This document shows positions 12,706-55,145 of a stretch of 64,000 bases of DNA, piece by piece (positions within the stretch are counted from its first letter, which is position 1; every line of letters begins with the position of its first letter). Source of the stretch: Polytrichum commune (Eukaryota > Streptophyta > Polytrichopsida > Polytrichales > Polytrichaceae). The notes below the pieces were generated by a model. The model did not search any database, was not told the origin of the DNA, and worked only from the letters and a program-made list of their open reading frames with translations. A program made the position numbers and the translations under genes. The stretch covers positions 50,926,758 through 50,990,757 of the forward strand of contig OX485805.1 of assembly GCA_950295325.1 (NCBI GenBank), given 5' to 3'.

Positions 12706-15700
12706 GATGCTGATATTAATTCTGTCTGTCGGTGGCTGATTCTATGTATCCTGTACGTAGACAAAAGGCTTGATCAATTGAGCTTAGTTTACCACAAGGA
12801 GTGGACCATTTATTCACATGGAAATGTACACCAAATCATCTTTTATGAGTACAGGATGACTTGACTGTCGCCATTTCATAAAAAGAGGGATATCCTGAAG
12901 ATTACGGCCACGACCTCAAAGAGGAAGACTGTTTGGGATGTGCAAATTAAAGGGTAAAGGCAGGAAGATATGGAAAGTCAATTGATCTGAATCGGCTGCA
13001 CAATTACACCTGTACTGCTCAAGAGATGAGGATAATTTCATCGAAAGTCCGACTCATACACCTGCGATAATTTGCTATGTGAATAACCTACCGGTAAAGA
13101 CTGCTGTGCGATCAATGCACAAATCCTTCAAGCAAGTTTACAGAACTAGGCTGCTTAGGAACATCAATATGCCAGTAGAAAATCCATGTCCAAGAGAAGT
13201 GCGGTATGTACCTGGGAATTTGTCGCAAAAGCCTTCAGCACCGACGAATTCGGTCGATTTCAGACCGCGGATCCGCAAAGATGGAAAGTTTGGGTAGGCA
13301 AGAGTGCTCATATAGTCATGTTTTGCAAAGGGTGAGTCGCCACTGTCGAGCCCACCCCCTCTCGCCCGTCACTGCCTCGATGTGTGGCATCTTTCATCCT
13401 GGCGACCAAACCTCGGGGGCTGAGAATTTTTTGTTACTACTACTCTCGAGAGCCTCGACAATGTAATTATGAGTCGATGTCCTGTGGACGAGCCAACCTC
13501 GAGGGCTGGAACTACATTCGAATGTCCTCAGTCAAGCGCTAATTAAGAGGCCGGGGCTAATTCATGCTTTCAAGATTCATAACTCGCTACTGCATCTCTC
13601 ATGCAGTCTTTTTTGGATTCAGTGGGAGCTTATAATGTGTTAGTTTCTCCTGATTAGTTAATTAGTGAGTAGTCATTCTAGAAGCTACCAAGAAACATTG
13701 ACTTCACCACAAGTCCCTGGCACCGTGATGAGTGTGTTCTTGTTACATAAATGAATAGAAAATATTGATGTGTTGTACTGTGATTAGTGGTTGTGTTTCA
13801 GTGATGTATTGAGTATGAATGTAATGATAATATCACAGTTTTAAAAAGTCTTGAAATGGACATAGCTGTATCCTAACGTCCTCAAGATCAAACACTCACT
13901 TTCAATGTGCCCTGTATACATTTACACGGATTGATGCATATTATACGCCGCGGAGAAATATGGAGTAAAAGATGAGCATCCTAACCTTCCACGACTGCAT
14001 CCCCAAGAAAGGGATGCCAAACTTCCACCCTCTCAGATTTATACATGAAGCGGCAGTTCCAGAGTTTCTCAATCAGCTGGCAACGAATAATAACCTGAAT
14101 CAAGATCAGAGACAGGACAGGCTCCATCCAGTCGTAGGTTTCAATCGCGATGGTGTGCAAGTCCTACGAATGAATCGAAATGCACTTCAAAGTACTTCAG
14201 AACTATATAATATCCATACTCTGCGTAGTTGGTTGGGCCCCTTTGGGGGCAATCCAAAAAGTTGGCCCTGCCGGCAGGTGTACACAGCACACGGAATTCT
14301 CTAGTGAAAGGAGAAAGTATACTGTAGTTGGCTTTGAGCTGAGCACCCGGCTGTTGGTTATTCGGTAGGGGAAGAGGGAAAACTATGTATGATTTGTGGT
14401 TTCAATTCGCCGCTGAAATGCATGGGCCATATAGATTTGCCGCTGACGAGGTCATTCCAGAATCATTGTGGAGTTCTTCTCAGAACACAACCAGGAAAAT
14501 GGACATAGAGGGCACGAAGTCGGTCTATACAATTTAGCAATCAAAGAATGACATGCTTAAGCTGATAGTCACTCTCCCTAATTAGACCTGGATTGGACAC
14601 TGGGGAATATCGACCTATTGAATCCTCAACTTATTTTCAAGTTTGTTCAGAGAAGAATAGACGAAGTGCAGTTTCCAACGTTACCAATTTGCAAGCTAGT
14701 GAGCAGATCCAAACAAAGTTGTCATCTACAGAATGCATTGAAATTCAGACAATTATGAAATGCTCTTCATGGTCTTCAAGATCAAGAATTAAATGCTCAA
14801 TACTTCAGCACAATACATTATCCCACTTCTCATGGGAACATAGCACGAGAGAAGACGCTTTCACTTTAGACCAATTGTGACCACTGATTGTAGTAAGCAG
14901 TTTACGTGTTCCGGTGTCTCAGAAGGTTAGGCTTTAGAGAAATCCACTATAGTACACTTTTTGCACACAATGTGTGATGAGGTTGCACAAAGAATAGATA
15001 AGTACTATCAAGCTCCCTCTGCGTATTAATTATGGGGCACCAGGTGCACAAGAACCTTATGGTTATTTGCACAAATCTATGCATGTGTTTATAAACACAA
15101 GGTATCAGTTTTGAAGCTTAAATCCCCAGGTCTAGAAGTGTTAAAAAAAACTATTCTTCTTCACATGGTCAACTTCCAAAATCAGACTCAAGGTGCAGAA
15201 ATTCTTCACCGCAGTTGCACCATGGGAGTACCTTTCCTTACTTTGATAGGCATATTTGAAATATTTGTTATGGTTCTGGGGATGATCGTGGGCATAACTA
15301 TTTTGGAAAGTCTGTCCTACATTGTTTGGTGAACCAAGGGGGAGTAGGTTCAGGGAAGTTAATATAAGGTGTATTTAACGGGCTATAATTTGATCAAGGC
15401 GTATAGAGCAGAGGCACCCATAACCAAACACGTAAGGGATCCTACGCCAGATCTGGAGAAGTGTAAGGTGGTGCAAATTTTTTCATGTAGGAAGATAGAA
15501 ATAAGGAAGACTCTAAATGTTTTGATAATTGAAATCTTTGAAGTCAAGAGTTGGTTTGAACATATTACCACTGTCTAGAGCATGTCATAATTGTTCATGT
15601 AAACAACACATTCCTCCTCACTTTAGCACTCAAAACCAAGACATGATGTCATGGCACTATTGGTTCGGACTTGATTGAAATTGAGTCCCAACTTGATCAA

Positions 15701-20332: not shown

Positions 20333-23300
20333 GGGGAGTGCTATCTTATGAGCGATGAGTGATAACTTGTGAGTGGAGAGGAAGGTAAAACATTTGGTAA
20401 TAGGCCCACTAGTATCCTATAAAATGTGGTATTTTGGCCTAAATAATAACAATTTTAGGGTTCATCAATGAGAAGGGTGGGGAGGATAAATAATATGAAT
20501 AATCTCAATAAATGCCAAAATAATTAATTAAAGTCAACAAACACATACTTGGTACAAGAAATAGAAAACATATCTAATATTGTAGGTAGATTCCACATCC
20601 ATTCATTCAAATATATGCAAGCACAAATTCAAACAAGATTGCTCTTAGAAGGAAATGCATATTAAATCAACTTAAGTACTTGGACATAATTATTTAAGTA
20701 CTAAATTTTAGTCAATTTTTGTGATACCCATTCAATAATATCCAATGTGTAAGGCATTCAAGTCAAAGATACAAGACAATGTGTCACACAAATCACAATC
20801 CACATTTACTGGATGTTTTATTACAACCAAATAATTGCCACACTAAATCAAAAGCATGTGCACACTCACACAAAATAAGAGAAATCATATCTAGGAACTT
20901 CTCATGTACCCAAATCCATATTCAAATCATCTTCACTACTACCATTATGTTCTTGAGCCTCTACATCAACAAATAGCAAGACACAAAAATAATAATGTAT
21001 AGATTTAATTAGTCTTTGAGGTGTAATGGCAGTTGCCATCCGTGCCGCCTCATACTTGGCATAAATAGGAAGAACAAACTTGTGATATTACTTCATTTTC
21101 TTGCACAAAACATCCAAGAAGGTTAGACACAACCAAGAAGGACGAAATATTTTACAATAACGAACAAAAGTTTTAAACCGTGTGAACCAATAAACGTACG
21201 CACCCAATCGGGATTTCCTTTGAACTTTTCGAAAAGGCTCTTTGTCATCTTCTACGACTATGTTTGAGGATTGCAAGTGGCCAATCAAAGGAGTTGGCGT
21301 TGGATCGAGCAAAGGGGCCAATATGGTATTAAACATGACAGTGTCTTTCTCAAATGCAAGAAGGTGTCGACCACTATGCCAACAAGCATGAGTTGATGCG
21401 TTTGCAACACGCATGAACATTGATAGCGTAAGCAATTGGGCATACATGATGGAATTCAACCTAAATGCAACAAATCTTAGACCAAACAATTACTTTCACA
21501 TGTAGATGCGTAAGCATCAAGGACAACACCTCCCTGCTTAGTCAACACTTTGATTAGGAATTGGAGTTTGGGTCTCTCTCACGTAGACCTCTCTATGGGA
21601 TATTTCCATGCATTAGATGCGTATTTGTTGTAGTATGATTGAAGAAGATATCCAATGATTCCACCTCGGGTGCAGAAAGACCACCCAATTTGTTGAAAAT
21701 AAATTATGGACATGGCTCATTATGGAAGAATAATATGATCCGAAATCATCATGTCTGCAAGCATCACAATTCAATTAGTATGAAGCAACAAATTTAAACA
21801 TTTCATATGACAAAAAATAACAAGTGAGTATTTTAGAGACATTACATATTGTTAGTGTTGTAATCCTATGGGAGCATAAAGGCAACTCATTAATTACCCA
21901 CCAATCCTTTGCCAATGAAAAACCATATGATGCAACTTATGTTCTCACATCATCCCTCATTTTTTGAGCTTTGGAAGAAACAAAAGTAACGGAGCATTAT
22001 CAATCAAAATACCATCTACAAACCCAAACAATGCCTCTATGTCCTTAGGGTTGTGTTCATTCCATGGGGGAAGTGAATTTGGTGGAGATGACACATTTGG
22101 AAATGGCAGAACCTTTGGCGAGTCAATGATGATCAAATCAAATCCACCAAATCTGTAAATGTCAGATGTAACTTGAGTCTTCCAAGCATGACTAACTTAT
22201 GAACAAATATTACATAAACTGTGATTTAGAGTACTATGCAACACTTCATTGAACCTTGAATAAACTCCCAAAAACATGAAGTTAATTCAATAAAAAGTTT
22301 GACATGACCACTAACCTTTTTGACAAATTCAAAAGCCAAAATCAACATGGAGTTTTATGTTGCTCTATTCTCCAACATGTTGGAGATGGAGGAATTTTTC
22401 ACAAACGTTGAACCATTAGTGAATTTGGAAGCCACCTATTGAGATTGAATTATAGAAGAAAATGGTGTAAAAACAATACCATGCTAGGATGGACTTAGAG
22501 TTAGAGCAATGTCATCAAGGTGTAAAACATTTTTCCCTTGTCATTTTGGGTTGTACTGGGGGGAGGAGGTGATGATGGTGGAAGAGTGGGATGTATACTA
22601 GATGTTGCATGTTTAGCTTGTGTAGTGTCCATTTTTTTCATGCATTTGTTACCTTTCCCAGTCAACTCAGGTTCTTCCTCTGATTTTTCCTTCACTTCTT
22701 GTGAAGGCACCACAGACGATCTGAGAGCCTCTTCTTTAGATGAATGGAAGTTTGTTGGACACTCAATAAACCACGGACAAAAAACCAATGAGTCATGAGT
22801 CCACAACATAAGCTGCAAAGTTGAGAATATGCAAAGGTCACTAGCCTTGTCAACCAAGAATATAGGGTTGATGAAAGGGCTTACAATGGAATAACTTTGC
22901 AAGTATGCAACTCTCTTGTGAGGTACCTACATGACAAGAAATATCCATGTAGTCAACCAATGTGATATTATATGAATATAATTTAAGCAAAAGTTCATGA
23001 CATGAAATACACTTGTAGATCATACGTCTCATAGTTGATTCCCCTTTGGAACAATTCAATAGAATTGTAGATTTTGTGAAAGGTGTCTTCCCCTAGAAAA
23101 ATGGAATAAAAACCTTCACCCACTGGAGACATCGCCAACGTTCCACACAATCCGTAGGTTTGAGAACATTCTTTCAATTGACCATGCCCAACTTAGGCAG
23201 AATGCCACCAAACTCTTCAATGACAACCTCCTCCAACTAGGACGTCAAATACACTATAAGAAAACATCTATAAAAACAATGAAAACAAAAAAAGATTACA

Positions 23301-43128: not shown

Positions 43129-43509
43129 GTAGTAGCACCACTTGAAGGGTTAACTTAATAATGCTCTTCATTTGGTAGACCACGTTTCGGATAATTTATT
43201 TTGGTTCCATGTGTCAAAGGTCCACTATGGCACTCCCTATCCATTCCCTCTTGATCCAATCTTCATTCAATCTTGGGCTAGATTGGTATTTGCATGCATC
43301 ACCTTTCACGGCACTTGTTCCCTATGGTGTGAGAGTTTGATAGACCAGGTTGAATCTTATGAGTTTGTTGGTACTTGCAAGGTTTGGTCTTACATGAGCA
43401 AAACACATAGGTAGATATGTCTAATGCGGTTGCTTCTCGTAATCGGACACCTATATTTGAGTGGTAAGTAGTTTGGTGGGACTTCAAGAACATATATTAG
43501 AAAGGCATG

Positions 43510-43570
43510 GAGGGAAGCTATCTTATGAGCGATGAGCAGTGAGCGGTGAGCGGTGAGCAGTAACACATGA
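43510..43570. repeat. Left terminal inverted repeat of the MULE
   Basis: Starts right after the target duplication. Contains GCTATCTTATGAGCGATGAG followed by repeated TGAGCGG/TGAGCAG units and AGTAAC. Confidence 0.85.
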
Positions 43571-43734
43571 GCAATGAGCAGTAACATATGAGCAATGATT
43601 CCAAATTTAGTAAAGACACACGGGTTTAGGGTACACAACCAAAATTTTGACAAATTAATTGCATATTTTTAATTGTAAATTGCCAATATTTTAAATGAAG
43701 CACAAGTGAAAGGGCCCTATTTCCATGGATCATT

Positions 43735-44500
43735 TAAAACACTTTCAATTCATTGCTGATTTTTATTATAATAATCCAAACCAATACATGTCATTTATTG
43801 ACATCCTTATACATGTAGTTACAACCAACACTTGCACAACTACTCACATTCCACAACACCATCAAGCTCAAGTAGGTGCATAACCTCATTATACGTACAT
43901 GTAGGTGCCATAATTGTGAGCCACTCAAACTGCTCACGGGTTGAATTAAGGCCCAAAATCTACAAATGAAAGGAAATTAGATATTAGAAATAGTCAATAT
44001 GTAGGTAACTACTAGGTTTTGAGACATCCGCCTGTGGATGCGAGTTGTGTAAGAGATTGGTATTAGGTCTGTATCAACCCGGGTTCGAATCCGGTTGGTT
44101 ACATTGACTGGTGCTATCCCAAATTGAGCTAGTGATAAAGCAGGAATAATCTATAGGCGGATACCAAGAAGACGTTACTACGCGGATGTGCGTAGAATCT
44201 TCTCAATTATTTTTTATTTTTAGAAACATTGTTATTATTTATCCATGTCAATCAATCAAACCGCTCACGGTTGGGTCGTAGTCTAAATAGAAATGAAGTT
44301 ACTGAATCATTTGAAATACTTTCAGTCCACTGCTAATTTTTATTATAATAATCCAAACCAAAACATGTCATATTTTGACATTCAAATATATGGTACTTAA
44401 TAGACCATTTGCAATACTACTCACACTCTACAATACCAGCAAGTTCAAGTAGTCGCATGACCTCGTTATAGGTATATGTAGGTGCATGAATGAACTTGTC
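43735..44500. repeat. Direct duplication of the transposase 3' end
   Basis: The block at about 43735-43935 and the block at about 44311-44500 share TTTTTATTATAATAATCCAA, CATGTCAT.TTGACAT, CAAG.TCAAGTAG and ACCTC.TTATA, which cover the last codons and 3' flank of the transposase. The SINE at 44020-44215 lies between them. Confidence 0.75.
44020..44215 (+). mobile_element. tRNA-derived SINE, copy A
   Basis: Contains a consensus Pol III B box inside GGGTTCGAATCCGG, preceded by GGATGCGAGTTGTGTAAGAG as the probable A-box region and followed by GACTGGTGCTATCCC and GAGCTAGTG. It ends in a T-rich tail. An inverted second copy lies at 48790-48990. Both are inside the MULE. Confidence 0.75.
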
Positions 44501-47500
44501 ACTCTCGTAATCCACCTTGCACAAAAATCTAAACACATAATAAAGATGTTTACAATACACCCATTTTCCTTTCTTTCCCGATGCATGAAAGGACATTTTC
44601 GTGAAATCCGGGCATGTGCAATGCGGGATGTCGCCAATTATGACATGGTAGGTGATATCATGCTTGGAGACAATGTTGATTATCATTCCAAAGCCCGGAT
44701 ATGGAATGGCAGTGACCCCAACCACATAGTAACCCTCCATGAGTCTGGCGCTCTCCCATTTGTTTTTGTGATCCGCTAGCGGTGTTGTTGGATTACGACG
44801 CACTGTCTTCCCAAACCTGAATGTAGGGTGGGCGTCCAGGTTTGGTGGCATAGAAAAATGCAAGCGAGGGATGGGGAGAGTTGCGATTGTTGAAAGCCTA
44901 CGACGAGGGGACAATGCCTCCCTCTGCTATAGTTGAAATCCAACATCTTCAAGTGCCAAAACCTCCTCTCGCGATAGATTGGTACCTATCTTCACCGGCC
45001 ACGTGTTGGGTACTATAGGCCAGTCCAATACATATTTCTTCTTACTGCCACTCACAGAACGTTTGATGTCGTCAGGGCAAAACCAAAATTCATACTCCAC
45101 ATTGTTGGGAGAGCGAAATTCCTTCCTGAGCCCTTTGTATGTTGGAGCAGGTATGCCATGTTTCCTAGTCCCGACTTTGGCATTGCACATAGTCCCTGTG
45201 ATGGCCTGCAGTGCCCAACATCGTTTGGCTGAGTTGGGTGGTAATCTTGCAATGTGCCACTTGGAAGCAAGATAATCTGTCTCTAACACGGATGTAGTAT
45301 GAGCCACACCATAAATTGCAGAACTCAACGATTCCTCTATGCGTTGACAAATTGCTCGGATGTTGGGACGAAGAATGGAATAGTTCACTTTGTCGGGTCG
45401 ATGAGAATCACAATCAGCACCCGGTGGTAGGTTGAATTTGCGTTTGGTGGAACCAAAGAGCTATGACCCTTCCAATGCACAATCTCTAGTGTTGACGTCT
45501 TCTGTCCCTCGATAAGACTTCATGGCATCGGCCAACATTTTTGGATCTCCACACCTGGCAGCCGCTTTGAGTTTCAAGGAGGCCGAATCAGGACCTTTAC
45601 CATCAGACCCCCCTTTCAACCATGTCCAGTAATTTGCAATTTGCATGAAGGCACGGATCATGTCGTCCATTGTAGCTTCATATAAACAAGTCATCTTGTT
45701 GCCGGACTGTTGGAGCCATTTGTTGTGTACAGTCTCTGCAAGGTTGCATGTTGGCATTTCCGCACGCTCTTCTATTGTCATATCCTATGAACAACACATA
45801 TATACAAGGATAGGAAAAACATAAGATATATTATATATCAGTGGCAAGATATTGAATGACAGTGAATAATGAAGTTTGATATGTACTTACAAGTAGCATA
45901 TGACCATTCCATTGTCTATAACGAAAGTGCCAAAATCCCAACCACTCTGAAAGGCCAAGGATGCCTTCTTCCGAGGCAGCTCCAGATGACAACCACCAAG
46001 AACGAATCACATGGTACTTAGTCTCAGCGTCGTCCATTGTTTTCGCGTCTTTGTAATCCTTGCATATTTGTTTGTATTGAAACTGCAAGGATGGTTTGAT
46101 ATACTTTTGGGTCATCTTATCCAAGCTTGCAGACCAATGGAAAAGACATGTACGCTCACGTGCAACCATGAGTAGACTTTGATCACCATCCCCGTAAATC
46201 GCCCTCACCGCATTCCAATTAGCTTGAGCACTATCAACCATGAACCCTTTGAAGTTTACGTTTGGTACACCATTTTCTGCCATGACAACATTCAAATTTT
46301 CCCAAAAGAGAATTTGTGTTGCACCATCTTCAGATTGCATGTCACAACACGCAAAAGTCAACACTTTACAGTATCGACTGTCGTACAGATGGCAAGCCAT
46401 GGTCGTCCAGTCCTTCAAACGTTTGATATGGTCAAACATAAACTATGAATTCTCCATGTCCCCACCGACTTGCATCCTCTTCACAAGTTCCACACCACTA
46501 CTTGGAAGGTCTACAGACATCTTGAAAACAAACACTTTGTCCTTTGACTGCCCTAGAAAGCGACTACCATGGACGAACTTGAAAGCAGAGTGGTCTTTGA
46601 GCGCCATAATACTATCCATAGTTCCCATTTTACTACGCAAAAAACGCTTTGATCCAAATACAAAGTTACGACAAGTCGGAGACGCAAGAGTGCTGAATTT
46701 GTCCATGACGACCTCTAGGGATGAACCAACCAAGTGATGGCCTTCGACATTTGCGGGAGATTTGAGAAGGTAATCGGCCAAGATTGTTTGCTTGCTGCCA
46801 TAATTATGGCTGAATTTTTGGCTGTGGGTGTTTTCAATACTTCATTTGCAACGCACTGGTATGCCATGTCCAATGACTCACATCATGTGCCATTGGCCAC
46901 AGGGTGATCATATACACCAATATAAATGCAAGTCTTGGACATTCCAACAGATGTGGAGTGAATGTATATGATTCGAGCATGACATAAAGCAATGCACACA
47001 GGTGTGGAACGACATACCTTACACTCGATAGTGGACCTAGTGGGAGGAACATTACCCACAGCAAATGGGAGACGAGTTGAACCGGCCCATTCGGTGTTGT
47101 TCCGGAGGCCCCCATTGTGATTCATGTAATCACAGTAGTCATTAGAACATTGGAGATGACCAGCACAAGTAGAACGCCGGAAGGACAATCCAAAATCATT
47201 TTGGATATTGATGGTTTTGGTGGTGCACCAAGGGTGACCATCGCACATTTTGTCCATGCCGTCCATTGAGCGGCCATACGTATTTGGAACTTTAAGTGTC
47301 ACAGGGGGTAAGAGAAACAAAACATCACCATTAAAAGAAGATGGTAAGTACTTGACATTACGAACATCTATACTATCAAAATCAATGGATGCAAGATCTG
47401 ACTTTGATCTTTTTCTTGACTTTGTGAGCTTCAAGGCATCAACTATAGTGAACCCTGTAGATGAAGGTGAAGGGTGTAGTGGAGGACGTTGAGAGGGTGA

Positions 47501-48025
47501 GATTAGGGGAACCACCCTCTTGTACATATGACCGCAAGGAGATTTGGATACATGTATAAGAAGTTGCAAAGGAGTAGAATGAACACCTTTAAATGGAAAC
47601 GGCGATGTGTTTGAAAGATCAATAGATGCACAACTGTCATCTTCTGAATCCGATAGCACAAACACACTATCATCAAGGGGTTCTACCTTAACATGTGCGG
47701 TAGAAGGAATTTGAACTGTGGATGTACCGGATTCGTTTGTCAATATGACAGTAGAAGCTTGCATCTGAGACTCAGAAAGACCTATCACCCTATATGAACC
47801 AAGTCCTAAGATCCACATAAAACCAACCTTTGTTCTGTTTTTTTGAACCAAAATCGTTTCATACACCTCTCCATCTGTAGAGTACATCTCCTGCTCTAAA
47901 TACATGGAGCCTATCTGGAGGTTGAATCTCAAACTAAGTAAATCCTCTGAAACACTCACATGACTATCATCTTGAAGTGGCAAAATGAAGGGAACAAAAG
48001 ATCCATGAGCTCTAATGGTAGCCAT
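44417..48025 (-). pseudogene. MULE transposase with SWIM zinc finger, interrupted
   Basis: Read on -, the ATG at 48025 opens 380 codons with an acidic/serine-rich middle (DSVFVLSDSEDDS), a basic KSRKRSKS patch and a Cys/His region (CAGHLQCSNDYC.., CKVC.., GVYDHP) resembling the WRKY-GCM1/FLYWCH-type fingers of MULE proteins. After TGA at 46883-46885 and a frameshift near 46787 comes the catalytic region: LTFACCDMQSEDGATQILFW (first Asp), FKGFMVDSAQANWNAVRAIY (second Asp) and ERTCLFHWSASL (C-x-x-H). An intron at about 45889-45787 is followed by further sequence and a SWIM finger C-T-C..(20)..C-K-H (HCTCPDFTKMSFH..VYCKHLYYVF) near the C-terminus, ending VECE. TAG codons interrupt it at 46443-46445, 45461-45463 and 44927-44929. 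The protein would be about 1,100 residues. It mobilised the element but this copy is inactive. Confidence 0.85.
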
Positions 48026-48438
48026 GGAAAATGGAAAGATGAATTAAACAAGACATCACAAAAATTTGGGTGAATGTTGTTTTTATATAGAGGTGTGTGA
48101 TGAAGTGAATGAAATTGAAAACGCGTGATACAATAATGGATGGTGATGAAAGCGTGTAATATCATAGCATCTAATAATATGGAAGTAAACATATCACAAT
48201 AATAGTTAGAGAATATTTACAAGCAAGATACACACAAAACAGTGAGGCTAGGGTGTCATAAACTTTTGGATTCTATAATAAAAATAGAAACAAAATGAAA
48301 GACGCGTTGAAATATTTCGTTCATTGGACGTCAATTGCAACATGAATGATCGTAATATACACCGGATTTATTTGGGATAGACACATTGGAAGAATAAATG
48401 ATAGTGGACTGATGGAGGACACATTATAGACACCAACG
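48026..48438. promoter_or_regulatory. Divergent intergenic region, presumed bidirectional promoter
   Basis: Only 413 bp separate the ATG of the - strand transposase (48025) from the ATG of the + strand exon at 48439. The stretch is AT-rich with no ORF. No specific promoter motif could be assigned, so the call rests on gene orientation. Confidence 0.45.
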
Positions 48439-48789
48439 ATGGTGGAGAATGTAGAGAGAACACCCGTGAGGCCGAAGAGAAGGCGTAGGAAAGCTTTGTA
48501 TTTTACTTCTGAGAAAAATAGGTTCGGACTGAGTGTAGGAAAGAGGAATGCAAACAAGGAAGGGAAAAGAAACATGTTGAATACGATAGTAGAAACTGTG
48601 AAAGCACTGGATTTTGATATGATGGAGGGTGATGAAGGTGCACATGCAGACGATCGTATATCGGAGTCGGAAATGAAGACGAGTTCAAAGAAGACAACAA
48701 ACAAAAAGGTAAGTCAGCTCAACGTAAATCAACGATATTGTTGGGCATATGTTTTAGTTTGTTCAAAGTAGTCAATTTAACAAAAACTT

Positions 48790-48990
48790 TATTTAGAAGG
48801 ATCTATGCACACTTGCGTAGGAAAGCCTTCTATGTATCCAACCTACTTAATTTCCTGCCTAACCACTAGCTCATTAGGGGATAGCACCAGTCAATGCAAC
48901 CAACTAGATTCGAACCCAAGTTGGAGTAGACCGAAACATCAATCTCTTTAGACAACTCGCATCCATAGGTGGATGTCTATACCATTTTTT
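48790..48990 (-). mobile_element. tRNA-derived SINE, copy B (inverted)
   Basis: The complement of this stretch shares with copy A the blocks GGATGCGAGTTGT, the B box GGGTTCGAATC, TTGGTTGCATTGACTGGTGC (GGTTACATTGACTGGTGC in A), TATCCC, GAGCTAGTG and GGATAC. It lies in the presumed first intron of the ParB-like gene. Confidence 0.75.
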
Positions 48991-49107
48991 CTTACACTTT
49001 TATACATTTGCCGATGGTATGACAGTAGTAAATCCTTGGAATATCGGCGGCCCACCCGAAAAACATTTCTGACAACGAATTAGAAAGCTTAAAAGATAGG
49101 AGGGAAA

Positions 49108-49655
49108 ACCCTGTGCGTTAACGCACAGGGTTGTTTAGGGTATCTAAGTCGCTCCCTAATACCCTCTGCGTTAACGCACGGGGTTGTTTACGCTGTGTAA
49201 GTTGCTCCCTAATACCCTATGCGTTAACGCACAGGGTGGTTTAGGGTTTGTGAGTCGCAACCTAATACCCTGTGCGTTAACGCACAAGGTTTTCCCTCAT
49301 AACTTTTAGGGTATCTAAGTCGCTCCCTAATACCCTGTGCGTTTACGCACATGATTGTTTAGGGTTACTAAATCGCTCTCCAATACCCTCTGCGTTAACG
49401 CACGGGGTTGTTTACGCTGTGTAAATCGCTCCCTAATACCCTGTGCGTTAACGCACAAGGTACTAGGGAGCGACTTAGATACCTTAAAAGTTAGGAGGAA
49501 AAACCCTGTGCGTTAACGCACAGGGTATGTACGAGCGACATAGAAAGTTAAAATTTAGGATGGAATACCCTGTGCGTTAATGCACAGGGTATTAGGGAGC
49601 GACTTAGATACCCTAAAAGTTACGAGGGAAAACCATGTGCGTTAACGCACAGGGT
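49108..49655. repeat. Array of ten 24-bp palindromes (core GTGCGTTAACGCAC), 53/65-bp periodicity
   Basis: The consensus is a perfect 24-bp dyad: ACC, then CTGTGCGTTAACGCACAG, then GGT. Starts are 49108, 49161, 49214, 49267, 49332, 49385, 49438, 49503, 49567 and 49632, giving spacings 53, 53, 53, 65, 53, 53, 65, 64 and 65. Sites 1 and 8 are perfect and the others carry one to a few changes, mostly in the outer bases, while GCGTTAACGC is intact in eight of ten. The spacers share TAGGGAGCGAC / GTCGCTCCCTAA, GGAGGGAAAA and TTGTTTAGGGT, and some switch orientation along the array. HpaI-type GTTAAC lies at each centre. Confidence 0.95.
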
Positions 49656-50159
49656 ATTAGGGAGCGACATAGAAGGTAAAAAGTTAGGAGGGAAAACCGG
49701 TATGTACTTGCGACTTAGAATGTCTAAAAGTAAAAGAAATAGCTATTGTATAAATTGAAAACGTCATGTAAAGTGTTGAAACTAAACATTTGTTCAAAAT
49801 GGGGTTAGAATGTAAAAGATGAGTAATATCCCTACTGAGATATTCATGTAGTATGTGACAGGAGCTAAAAAATGACCAAAAACAATGAAAAAAAATTTTG
49901 TGCCCAGAAATCCAAAATCTACGAGGTGGCCAAAAACAATGAAATAGATAGAAGAATGAGTAAAGAAAACGATATCAAACACAAAAAAAATATTAGAGAA
50001 AGTTGTAGCCACGGAGATTTAGATAATTTACAATATTTTTTTTATTTTTTTTGGACACGATTAGTATTATTTATAGATTTTACAAGTTTTGGCAAATCTA
50101 CCAATTCCATACTAATAAAATAAAATAAAATAAAAAACTTTTTCAAACCTTTGGCATAG

Positions 50160-50314
50160 ACCCTGTGCGTTAACGCACAGGGTCCACGCTAGCAACTTTC
50201 ATACATTTGTAGTCAGGTGCATAGACCCTGTGCGCCAACGCATAGGGTCTACGCCCGCAACTTTGGTAGGCCTCAAAGCTAGGCGCGTAGACCCTGTGCG
50301 TTAACGCACAGGGT
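50160..50314. repeat. Three further palindromes of the same family, 65-66 bp apart
   Basis: 24-bp sites at 50160-50183, 50225-50248 (with CGCCAACG at the centre) and 50291-50314. Here the dyad is longer: the last one extends to 30 bp (TAG on one side, CTA on the other). The spacer is CACGCTAGCAACTTT.. / ACGCCCGCAACTTT.., different from the first array, so the palindrome is conserved while the spacers are not. Confidence 0.93.
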
Positions 50315-50409
50315 CTACCCTAGTTGTTTAGGGTAAGCCGCTACCTTAATCACACAGTACTTAAACTACCAAAGTCACACCTTAAATTTTTTTTTTGTCA
50401 TTCTTCCTC

Positions 50410-50830
50410 TTGTTGGTGGTTCTTTGTTGTTGTGGTGGCTGCTGCTATTGCTGCTCTTCTTCTCTTGTTTTTGCTCATGTATTGCCACTACTTCTAGTGT
50501 TGTTCCTATTGGTTTAGGTGGTATTAGTTCAGATACTAATCTATTGTTCTTATTGTTGTTGTTTGTGCTGCTGCTGCTATTGGTGGTGTTGTTGTTGCTG
50601 TTGTTGCTGTTGGTGTTGGTGTTGCTGCTGGTGGTGTTTGTGTTGGTGTTGCTGATGTTGGTGTTGTTGCTGCTGCTGTTGGTGTTCCTGCTGTTGCTGG
50701 TGCTATTGGTGTTGTTGATCCTGTTCCTATTGTTGGAGCTGGTGTTGCTGTTTGTTTGGCTGGACGTGGTGCTATCCTGTTTTGTGCTCTTCTTCTACTG
50801 TTGGTGTTGGTATTGTTGTGGTTAGAGGTA
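50410..50830. repeat. GTT/GCTGTT-rich microsatellite before exon 2 of the ParB-like gene
   Basis: Long irregular run of GTTGTTGCTGTTGGT-type triplets. The apparent Leu/Val-rich ORF across it (50424-50825) is a translation of the repeat. Confidence 0.9.
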
Positions 50831-53800
50831 CTGTTTTTTCTCTACACCTTTAAGCATGTTCTCTTATGTAATCAAATACCTTTAGAAGATACTACATCAA
50901 GAATATTTCTAAGATTTATGTCATTGTTTGTATTTAGGACCAAACAATGGATGTGGAAAAATCAGTTTCTCTTTCCACGGATGATGATTCCACAAAAACC
51001 TCAACTCAAGATCGTCCATCCAAACAAGTTTATCATGATCAAGACATCTCATCAAACCTTCACAATAAGAATAAGAGAAAGAAAAAATTTACAAGAACCC
51101 CTCAATGATTTTGATTCCGATGAAGACAACGATGGTGATAATAAAACCTATCAACAGAAAGTATGGGAGCTTACGGACAAGCGAAAAGTTAATTCCACTT
51201 CAACAATTTTCTCAATCCGTGCTGGACCGAAATCTCGTTTGCGTGTACCCTTATGTCGCATGGTTCCGATGCCTATTGTGCGTCCTGCTTTGAAAGGCGA
51301 CATCACTAAATTGGAGGCTGATTTTTTCAATGGTTATCGTGATGGTGACCGTGTGTTTTATCTATCAGCTACCCACTCTAAGGGAAATTTTCAATTTGTG
51401 GATGACGAGGTTCGTGCATCTTGAAGCCCAAATTGGGCTCAAGCTAATGCGGTGTTTGAAACTGAATTAGATGCCGATCCTTCATTTACATCATACAAGA
51501 ACAAGATATTCTTCATATGGGATGGTAATCACAGATTTTTTGCTTGGAAAAGTTATATTGACCGCTTGCATACCGAAGATTACGAGCGTCATGTCTTTGT
51601 GAATTCCATCATTTTGGCGCCCGAGCTTGATGACATTCCAAGTTTGTTGACTGCTATGTACGACATCAACAAGTAATGCTCTTACTTCTTTATTTTCATT
51701 TATTTCTGGTTTGAATTTTGTTATTTGAATTATATTATCCTAAATCCATAAATTCAATATTTTTTCAGGTCAACAGAAAACTCTCACGTTTCTACCAATT
51801 TGGTGCATACTTTGTATCGGATGCAAAGTATTGGCACCATGCCTTTGACTTCTTTTAAAAAACAACTGGATCCTAGAAGTTATAAGCGATGTGAGGAGAA
51901 GTCCGTCGAAACTTGGTATTCTTTTACGCGGCCAATTTTTCTTGATTACATGTACACTGTAAGTTTTTCTAGCATTTCCTACTATGTTTTTAATATTTAT
52001 TTATCTTTCATTTACATCACATCTATATGTACTTATTAATTTTGGATTTTGTTTAATTTTTCAGCAAGAACTTGCCGAGGCTAGCGATATTGCTCTCAAC
52101 CTTTACAATGAAACCCATCCTCTTGAACGAACTTCAGAAGGAGTTTCTAAAGCAATGTCCGCAACTGTCAACAAAAAACGTGTAATGTTGTCTTCTAGTT
52201 TTACAAAACAACTAGCGATTGCTGACAACAACCTCACCCGTGCTTTTCTTGAAGAAGTTAAGCATCATTGGGGTTCATTTTCGGTGCCTGAAATGTTACA
52301 AGAGAAACTTCATCGTATTGCTGTTAGTAATGTGGATCCAGATGTCAAAGTCGGATGGCTCAAGCTTTGGAATGGCAATAGATTTGACAAAGATGCATTG
52401 CATTTCCCGAAATTACACCTCTCTGATTCTGCACTTGATGATTGGTTATCAAAGTCTACATATTGGGCACAGTTAGAGAAAACAACTATTGAAGAATTCA
52501 AAGTATTATTTCATCTCCTCTTCAATTGCCTGCAGATGTGCCTACTCTCTCCGAATATATCCAAACCTGGAAATTTGCGGCTTTCAATTCAATATTCTAT
52601 CGTGAATTCAAAAGCGGAAAAGTAAAAAAACACAACGTTTGGGATGAGCAACCGAATATTGATCTTGCTATGAAGCGTGTTCTATACAGGTACAACTTAC
52701 TTTTTACTATTTTTTGATATTTTTTCATTATATTTTACTTTTCATTTAATATTTGGCTCATAATATTTTTGTGTGTAGGTATTTCCGATATATTTTGATT
52801 CCGCACAAATGCGTTATAGGGGAACCTCGTTTTTTTCCAAATTGGCGTGACACTGGTGCGGAAGACTCATGCATGTTCACTACAGAGATTTGTTTGGATT
52901 GGTCGCTCCCACACTATGAGGATTGTGGTTGGTATCTTGATTGTCCTAAAGATGCATGTCCGTCAAGTGAGAAGACAATCCGTCAGATAAATGATGCCAA
53001 AAATGTAGATCCTCGTGATACTACAATTTTGCAAGCACAAATTGTGCAGCTTAAACTTAGAGAGCCAGAAGCAAAAGAGACAAAACGTCGTAAGAGAAAA
53101 CATGTTCCTGAAATTAAAATACAAGGTGAATCGGAAATTTCACAACATGAAGAATTGCTTGTTTTTTCCAATGATTTGGATAAGAATACACTTGGAGGCG
53201 AAAGTTCAAAATCCGGGTGCGATGTATTGGAATTTCATTACTCGAGCACCTATGACGCTATTCATCGTGCGCCAACGAATGTTTTGAGAAAATAGTTATT
53301 CATACTGAAGAACTTTCTCACGCTCTCTTTTGCTCGATCTACTGCTGTCAAGAACAAGTCTGAAGGGGTTGAAGTAGGCCCTCCTGAGTGGATACAATGG
53401 CGGGCATTTCTTGAAAATATAAGTAATCTTCATTTTGTATTTTCTGTAATGTTCTTACTGTCATTTGGATTTTATTTTGTGTCTTATATTGTGATATGTT
53501 GTGGTATTTCAGTTCAAAGACAATCGCAAATTTCATATCATGGGAAGTCCGACTCCATTTGCCGTTGACTTGGTTTTTCTGCAATTTCCGGACGGTCTTG
53601 ACTTCAACCTCTCCAATAGACCTGCTGAAATTCCTCTTTGGAATAAATATGACAATAACTGGATGGTTGCAACAATATCCTTGTGCAAGTCCATCTTGTC
53701 TGATGATGACGTCCTCATAGTATTTTCTGCTATCGATATGCAAACGAAGAAGGTTTTGAATTCAACCTTACACAACGGCAACATGAAAGTTTTTAGGACT

Positions 53801-54869
53801 TTTATTTGCCTCAATTCGTACATGGTGTTCAAGGATCCGGAGTCTCCAACGTACACCGTAAGTATAACACATCACAATTGTTTCTATTTAATTATTTTGG
53901 TGTTATTTGCATTGTATATAGTTTTAACACAATTTATATTTTTTTGTAGACTCCGGCATTTATAACTCATGTCTTGGTAAGGGATTTTACTACCACAAAA
54001 TCCACGAGACAATCAAACTCCACTTTTTTTGGCACTGGATTGAAAAGCAAAAACTTGCTTTTCAATTTTGTGGATGAAAAAAACATGCTTCTTCAAAAAT
54101 TGGGAAGATCTTGGAGGGGGCCATATAAAAAATCGCCGCATTTTTTTCAAGATCTTATTGAATTTTTTACACCATCGAATGGACGCGTTGTTGATTTGAC
54201 ATGTTCCACTGGAACTTCTATCCTAGCAACATGCGCATGTGGCAGACATCTTCTTGCATTTGAGGGTGATAATGACATGTTTGAGCACATATTGAAACCA
54301 CTTTTGGAAAAGGTTTTGAAAGAGGGGTCATCTAAGGAGAATATACAAGATCTCACAAAAGAAGATGATGACCTCTCGGATGAGGAGATGCTTGAATTTG
54401 AGTGTGAGTAAGTTTTGATACAATAAATTTTTATTCAATTCATTGGTTCATTTTTATTTCTTCACATTATTTACATGTTTCATCGATTTGATTTCAGGAA
54501 TACGATTGGAAAGAGGACATGTCTCCCGTTTTGGACACATAGACAATTCCTACGAAGTCCAAGCCGTAGCCCGCGTCTCCCATCATATGCGGAGAATGTT
54601 GCAATTGCAATGTTGAATATCGAAGATTCGGATCCAAATGAAGAATCTTGCTATAGTTCCAAAATCAATTCGCAATGCAAAGGTGCTCGAATATATATAG
54701 ATGATGAGGCAAAAGATAGTTTCATGTCTAGTGCTACTAGTGATGAATAAATATTTGGACTTCATGTTGTTTATCCTTCTCAACCCTCTTATTACTAAAA
54801 CCCTAAAATCATCATTTTTAAGGCCACAATTCCACGGTTATAGGATATTGGTGGCCCTATTACCAAAAT

Positions 54870-54935
54870 TTTCATCTTCCTCACTGCTCATAAGTTACCG
54901 CTCATCGCTCACCGCTCATAAGATAGCACTCCCCG
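54870..54935. repeat. Right terminal inverted repeat of the MULE
   Basis: GTTACCGCTCATCGCTCACC followed by GCTCATAAGATAGCACTCCCC, the inverse of the left end, immediately followed by the target duplication GAAAGGCATG. Confidence 0.88.
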
Positions 54936-55145
54936 AAAGGCATGTGTTCAAAAAGGCCGACTCCATGTTCAAATATTGATAATCATTCTGAACTCATTAG
55001 CCAACATAATTGGGGGGCATTTATGACCATTTAATGAACACAAGAATCTTCACTTTGATCAGGAATAAGATATTTATATGAGCTCTAGAAACTATGAAGA
55101 AATTGGCAACAACCTCAACTTGGATTACTAACCATCTCATACTAA

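Follow-up and report, generated by a model that had tools for sequence, protein, structure and literature searches.

In maize, the Spm element carries subterminal arrays of a short site that is bound by the element protein TnpA. In bacterial ParB/parS systems, clustered palindromes are found beside the ParB gene. In the VANDAL transposons of Arabidopsis, VANC binds motif arrays in the non-coding parts of the element, which leads to loss of methylation, and related VANDAL families have different motifs (PMC5735166, PMC10398659). For phages, fusions of ParB with an N6/N4 methyltransferase have been published (PMC12704722).

Our analysis concerns thirteen 24-bp dyads in a 64,000-nucleotide stretch of Polytrichum commune DNA (the window), all of which fall in intron 1 of the second gene of an 11.4-kb MULE-like DNA transposon (43510-54934; Table 1). 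Like the Spm sites, these are many copies of a short site (binding is predicted here), but the array is internal and not subterminal. With bacterial ParB/parS the locus shares clustered palindromes beside a gene whose product has a motif resembling the ParB box; it differs in lacking profile similarity to ParB and in being a eukaryotic transposon, and the bacterial parS sequence is unlike the dyad. The resemblance to VANC/VANDAL comprises a further gene of a Mutator-group transposon, a short motif arrayed in tandem in the element's non-coding parts, among them introns, a repeat number that varies among copies, and a motif that differs between related families (PMC5735166, PMC10398659). The VANC-type trait found at our locus is the tandem array of a family-specific motif in non-coding element parts. 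The VANC21 motif YAGTATTAY, however, is non-palindromic and runs in one orientation, whereas the repeats here are dyads of 18-24 bp, and a DGNHR motif and a methyltransferase-like part characterise the second protein of this element. The phage fusions (PMC12704722) share with the second protein the possible order of a ParB-like box followed by an N6/N4 methyltransferase-like part; they differ from it in that here motif IV is lost, the gene belongs to a eukaryotic DNA transposon with introns, and the likeness of exon 2 is at motif level.

Table 1. Features of the transposon and its dyad array (window coordinates).
Feature	Position	Strand	Details
Left target-site duplication GAAAGGCATG	43500..43509		identical 10-mer at 54935-54944
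Element left end	43510..43578		TGAGCGG-type subterminal repeats; first 60 bases as in sister element
Transposase gene, decayed	44417..48025	-	ATG at 48025; tblastn pieces
Second gene, exon 1	48439..48708	+	90 aa, basic PKRRRRK stretch, donor AAG/GTAAGT
Intron 1	48709..50937	+	2.2 kb, holds 13 dyads; acceptor GTTTGTATTTAG/GACC
Array A, dyads 1-7	49108..49461		unit length 53 bp, in two cases 65 bp; minus orientation
Array B, dyads 7-10	49438..49698		units of 64-65 bp, plus orientation
Array C, dyads 11-13	50154..50318		units of 65-66 bp
Exon 2 with DGNHR motif ("ParB-like")	50938..51672	+	frameshift and in-frame stop in window copy
Exon 3	51769..51958	+	
Exon 4	52065..52511	+	frame shifts near its end in window copy
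Exon 5	52780..53292	+	
Methyltransferase-like exon MT1	53513..53857	+	motif IV position reads QFPD
Methyltransferase-like exon MT2	53950..54408	+	motif I position reads VVDLTCSTGT
Element right end	54880..54934		
Right target-site duplication GAAAGGCATG	54935..54944		exact copy of left 10-mer

The original prediction, made from the bare sequence, described thirteen 24-bp dyads, ten at 53 or 64-65 bp intervals and three about 500 bp downstream, and our coordinates reproduce it. The dyads start at 49108, 49161, 49214, 49267, 49332, 49385, 49438, 49503, 49567, 49632, 50160, 50225 and 50291, with start-to-start spacings of 53, 53, 53, 65, 53, 53, 65, 64 and 65 bp, a gap of 528 bp and final steps of 65 and 66 bp. 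Their consensus is ACCCTGTGCGTTAACGCACAGGGT. The statement that all of them share one core is too strong: the 14-bp core is exact in seven of the thirteen and has one mismatch in five, whereas the dyad at 50225 differs at 3/24 positions and falls outside the set of 12 close core matches. Likewise, four dyads are perfect palindromes over 24 bp, but the other nine pair at 9-11 of 12 positions. Twelve close matches to the core compare with 0.06 expected, and a count of twelve is reached in 0/100 shuffles. The spacers of the two groups have indeed diverged, as had been claimed, yet they are copies of a single 65-bp unit to which arrays A, B and C all align. Array A is mostly this unit inverted and shortened by 12 bp; read from the unit alignments, orientation switches at dyads 1 and 7, with five units in plus and six in minus orientation across the array. 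The 20-bp dyad centre has no exact match in the viral_contigs and genome_contigs collections. A second conserved block, GCRACTT, starts 8 bp after the dyad in units of both subfamilies defined below (window 49108-49698; L028, L030-L035), and a TTG-rich low-complexity repeat (50544-50752) lies between array C and exon 2.

MULE target-site duplications measure about 8-11 bp. All eight elements with both ends resolved (the window element, six copies and a sister element) are flanked by an exact 10-bp duplication, and by eye a SWIM-like C-x-C...C-x-H motif is present near the C-terminus of the transposase (PF04434: E 0.17, 11.9 bits against a cut-off of 19.6). The assignment rests on these two traits and is worded "MULE-like" because no MULE transposase model in Pfam matched five window pieces and seven homologues. 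Read through its lesions, the transposase finds 22 homologues in the database, of which the top one shares 79% identity across 62% of the query. Repeats of the TGAGCGG type that lie immediately within both element ends (43510-43578, 54880-54934) are candidate transposase binding sites.

The exon 2 acceptor of the second gene is TTTAG and its phase matches the exon 1 donor. In the window copy the gene is disrupted in exon 2 by a frameshift and an in-frame stop, and among the copies read most carry one or more stops or frame changes in this gene. Exon 1 was found full-length at 72-93% amino acid identity in five of eight other genomic stretches and in pieces in L028 and L033; it was not found in L029. 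Exon 2 alone has 43 homologues in the protein database at E up to 1, whereas the composite second gene has no match there at E 0.001, probably because only single exons are open frames in that database. No relatives of exon 2 and the transposase in viral_contigs, or of exon 2 in genome_contigs, were confirmed, and the exon 2 homologue P0050 has no match in phages.

Exact cores occur 724 times in the 407.8-Mb host genome, against 0 for the reversed control. Copies were sampled from the first 50 of these places as listed, all on contig C1, and these fall into eight stretches (L028-L035). Each of the eight carries parts of the element and seven carry a homologue of the DGNHR exon; in L028 these parts are limited to one transposase end and an exon 1 split into two pieces. 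The dyads are thus tied to the gene and its element, and a free satellite was not seen in the sampled places; neither intact copies devoid of palindromes nor a satellite detached from the gene, the two outcomes named beforehand as refuting, appeared in this sample. L028 and L029 are separated by about 16 kb and may belong to a single interrupted element, for which no ends were resolved. In this region (L028, L046, L029; C1:457000-482900) a family-1 element, as we call the family of the window element, is apparently interrupted by other material, which includes a transposase end and a diverged piece of MT2 type (26%).

Six further complete copies, each with its own different exact 10-bp target-site duplication, bring the number of complete family-1 elements to seven. 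They hold between 9 and 62 dyads each, mostly at steps of 64-65 bp, with 53 bp in part of subfamily I. Most of the seven have a gap of 462-555 bp followed by one to four more dyads, and in five of them one or two dyads lie 214-279 bp before exon 2; in L031 the second dyad group is this group just before exon 2. In 7/7 all dyads (at most 6/24 mismatches) are located between exon 1 and exon 2. The L033 element (C1:4873000-4882900) is 18.1 kb long and has 62 dyads.

The variable number of dyads, 9 to 62 per complete element, resembles ordinary repeat turnover and would suit a neutral tandem repeat hitch-hiking in the element. Conservation speaks against such a scenario, which we regard as highly improbable. 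Within the window, arrays A/B and array C share 0.894 identity in the dyads and 0.460 in the spacers, and only 2 of 100000 column permutations match the observed dyad conservation. Among copies, the comparison suggested along with the original prediction came out in its favour: dyads are more conserved than the spacers of the same units in 28/28 element pairs, with dyad identities of 0.874-0.934 that are biased upwards because resemblance to the consensus (at most 5/24 mismatches) was the criterion for picking dyads. The regular spacing, in which doubled gaps of 129 bp make up only 3 of 151 spacings, suggests that few dyads were missed. Subfamily I comprises the window element, L029 (which contributes one dyad and no unit) and L035, and subfamily II the other stretches, L028 having been placed by its spacers. 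Between the subfamilies (12 pairs) dyad identity is 0.879-0.925 and spacer identity 0.479-0.565, and the two consensus dyads are identical at 24/24 positions. For the second gene, dN/dS is 0.19-0.33 between subfamilies (15/15 comparisons) and 0.53-0.84 within them (13/13), as expected for copies that decay after insertion.

The same copies bear on whether the dyads are kept as RNA. Provided that the gene model holds, transcription of intron 1 includes them, and they could form hairpins that act in splicing or as a source of small RNA. However, the 153 dyads contain 1530 outer base pairs, of which 202 have a one-sided change (77 to G-U, 125 broken) and eight a change on both sides, four of these compensating. 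One-sided changes dominate and compensating ones are few, with no excess of the latter; therefore it is the sequence that is kept and not RNA pairing, and we consider a hairpin function the least probable of all explanations weighed here.

CpG was also considered as a sign of hypomethylation. The observed values are 1.07 in array A/B against 0.48 for the window. Among the seven complete elements, the two of subfamily I have 1.10 and 1.05 in the array, compared with 0.69 and 0.65. Of the five in subfamily II, two show a higher value in the array (e31, 0.92 vs 0.71; e33, 0.80 vs 0.66) and three do not. The idea was dropped: with clear enrichment in subfamily I only, CpG content does not generally argue for an unmethylated past.

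A sister element lies 1.35 kb from the family-1 element of L035 (C1:9409600-9424450; L045:2751 to L050) and has an exact target-site duplication of 10 bp. It agrees with the window element in all of the first 60 bases, and the main blocks of the two transposases share 76-91% identity. The second gene is far more distant: identity is 35% in exon 2, 40% in part of exon 4, 28% in part of exon 5, 28% in MT1 and 36% in part of MT2, and no counterpart of exon 1 or exon 3 was detected. By contrast, identity between the window element and L030, which belongs to the other subfamily, is 83-93% across exons 2-5, MT1 and MT2, with P0023 used to measure exon 2. The family-1 dyad is absent from the sister within 7 mismatches. 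Instead, the sister has its own palindrome, TTGTGCGCNNGCGCACAA, in five copies between its two genes (0 expected), at steps of 103, 128, 102 and 104 bp and with perfect 8-bp arms in 4/5; this palindrome does not occur within two mismatches in the seven complete family-1 elements. Both palindrome types fit TGTGCG-N4-CGCACA and differ in their centres and flanks. Palindrome type thus tracks the second gene and not the transposase or the left end, as seen in one sister copy (n = 1).

This comparison also weighs on the question of which protein might bind. The dyads lie inside the transposon, a few kb from the start of the transposase gene, and might thus be transposase binding sites used in transposition. 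But none of the seven complete family-1 elements has a dyad near either end, the repeats at the ends are of another kind (the TGAGCGG type), and the sister, with its similar transposase and the same left end, has no family-1 dyad at all; transposase binding is accordingly very unlikely. Alternatively, a host transcription factor might bind the dyads, with the element borrowing it for an enhancer that serves both divergent genes; this would fit a conserved palindrome between divergent genes and indeed all of the conservation data. That two elements in the same genome have motifs differing along with the second gene, and not with the transposase, is less readily reconciled with a host factor, which we judge unlikely, though a good deal less so than transposase binding.

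In our opinion the dyads are rather likely the targets of a sequence-specific, probably dimeric DNA-binding protein, most likely the product of the element's own second gene. Three observations point to this predicted target array: it is internal to the element in the sampled copies, its dyads are constrained, and the dyad differs with the second gene. The joint difference in the sister suggests that the second protein recognises its own element.

The original prediction had called this gene ParB-like, a name that holds at the level of the DGNHR motif and lacks support from Pfam, PHROGs, PDB sequences or profile-profile comparison. DGNHR aligns onto the ParB box in the four local alignments obtained, and DGNH[RQ] is kept in 9 of the 18 homologues that reach the C-terminal DxNK. 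Together with the weak N6_N4 methyltransferase match given below and the published phage ParB-N6/N4 fusions (PMC12704722), this would agree with a parS-like array at which a ParB-fold clamp loads and from which it spreads, as in bacterial partition or in those fusions. Against it, profile-profile comparison with 10 phage ParB proteins gave probabilities below 1% in 8/8 runs, and the second protein has no ParB match in Pfam, PHROGs or PDB sequences. Loading and spreading of this kind appear doubtful to us, more so than a host factor. The searches recognised no DNA-binding domain in the second protein.

The catalytic motif IV of N6/N4 methyltransferases is [DNS]PP[YFW]. MT1 and MT2 together match PF01555 (N6_N4 methyltransferase) at E 0.0053 with 17.2 bits, under the cut-off of 26.7, and PHROG 3008 at E 2.9e-4. 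At the motif IV position, six of the seven copies read have QFPD and one has QFLD, so the catalytic motif is absent in 7/7; the same position reads DIPD in the sister and DLPY in a phage relative. Motif I of the sister (DLSVGTGA) is nearer to the usual form than that of the window element. The suggestion that the dyads are methylation sites of the encoded protein is not supported by these data: with motif IV lost in all copies read, methylation of the dyads by the family-1 second protein is unlikely.

If the second protein is the binding partner, it would attach, probably as a dimer, to the dyads in its own intron 1, and the many sites would provide strong, element-specific occupancy. Binding might maintain an open state in the element's centre, between its divergent genes, a VANC-like anti-silencing; alternatively, the second protein might regulate its own gene. 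Autoregulation or a marking of the element, both raised in the original prediction, are possible outcomes.

A wider interpretation, to which we give less than even weight and which we put forward tentatively, regards the second protein, which would combine a ParB-like box with a methyltransferase-like part whose catalytic motif has been lost, as a putative self-recognition device. Each lineage would have a private palindromic array in intron 1, and protein and palindrome would change together while transposase and ends stay similar. The device would serve anti-silencing or self-marking; its origin would be separate from that of VANC and would lie in parts of bacterial or phage type. If true, this would be, after VANDAL/VANC, a second and differently built case of transposon self-labelling with arrays matched to the element's own protein, and it would show what a methyltransferase-like protein that lacks its catalytic motif can be used for. 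The neighbouring element pair makes convergent evolution of self-targeting arrays directly testable. Neither element nor array is described in the open-licence PMC literature searched, which is no proof of absence in print; in PMC6446971, on Mutator evolution, "methyl" and "ParB" both have 0 occurrences.

Some further features of the window were recorded. An inverted repeat of about 196 bp (77%) links 44022-44215 with 48783-48978, the latter in intron 1 just before the array; by eye it is SINE-like, and ARAGORN found no tRNA in the window. On the left side of the element, the 3' end of the transposase gene is partly duplicated (43726-43908 and 44303-44485, 81%). At 20333-20499 there is a solitary right-type end from the same group of transposons (77% to 54934-54761); its interpretation as a complete non-autonomous copy was rejected, as no partner end was found in the window. 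A eukaryotic host is indicated by the introns, by an MMS19 match that scored just under its cut-off and by a match to U5 spliceosomal RNA at 14235-14352 (44.7 bits against a gathering score of 40).
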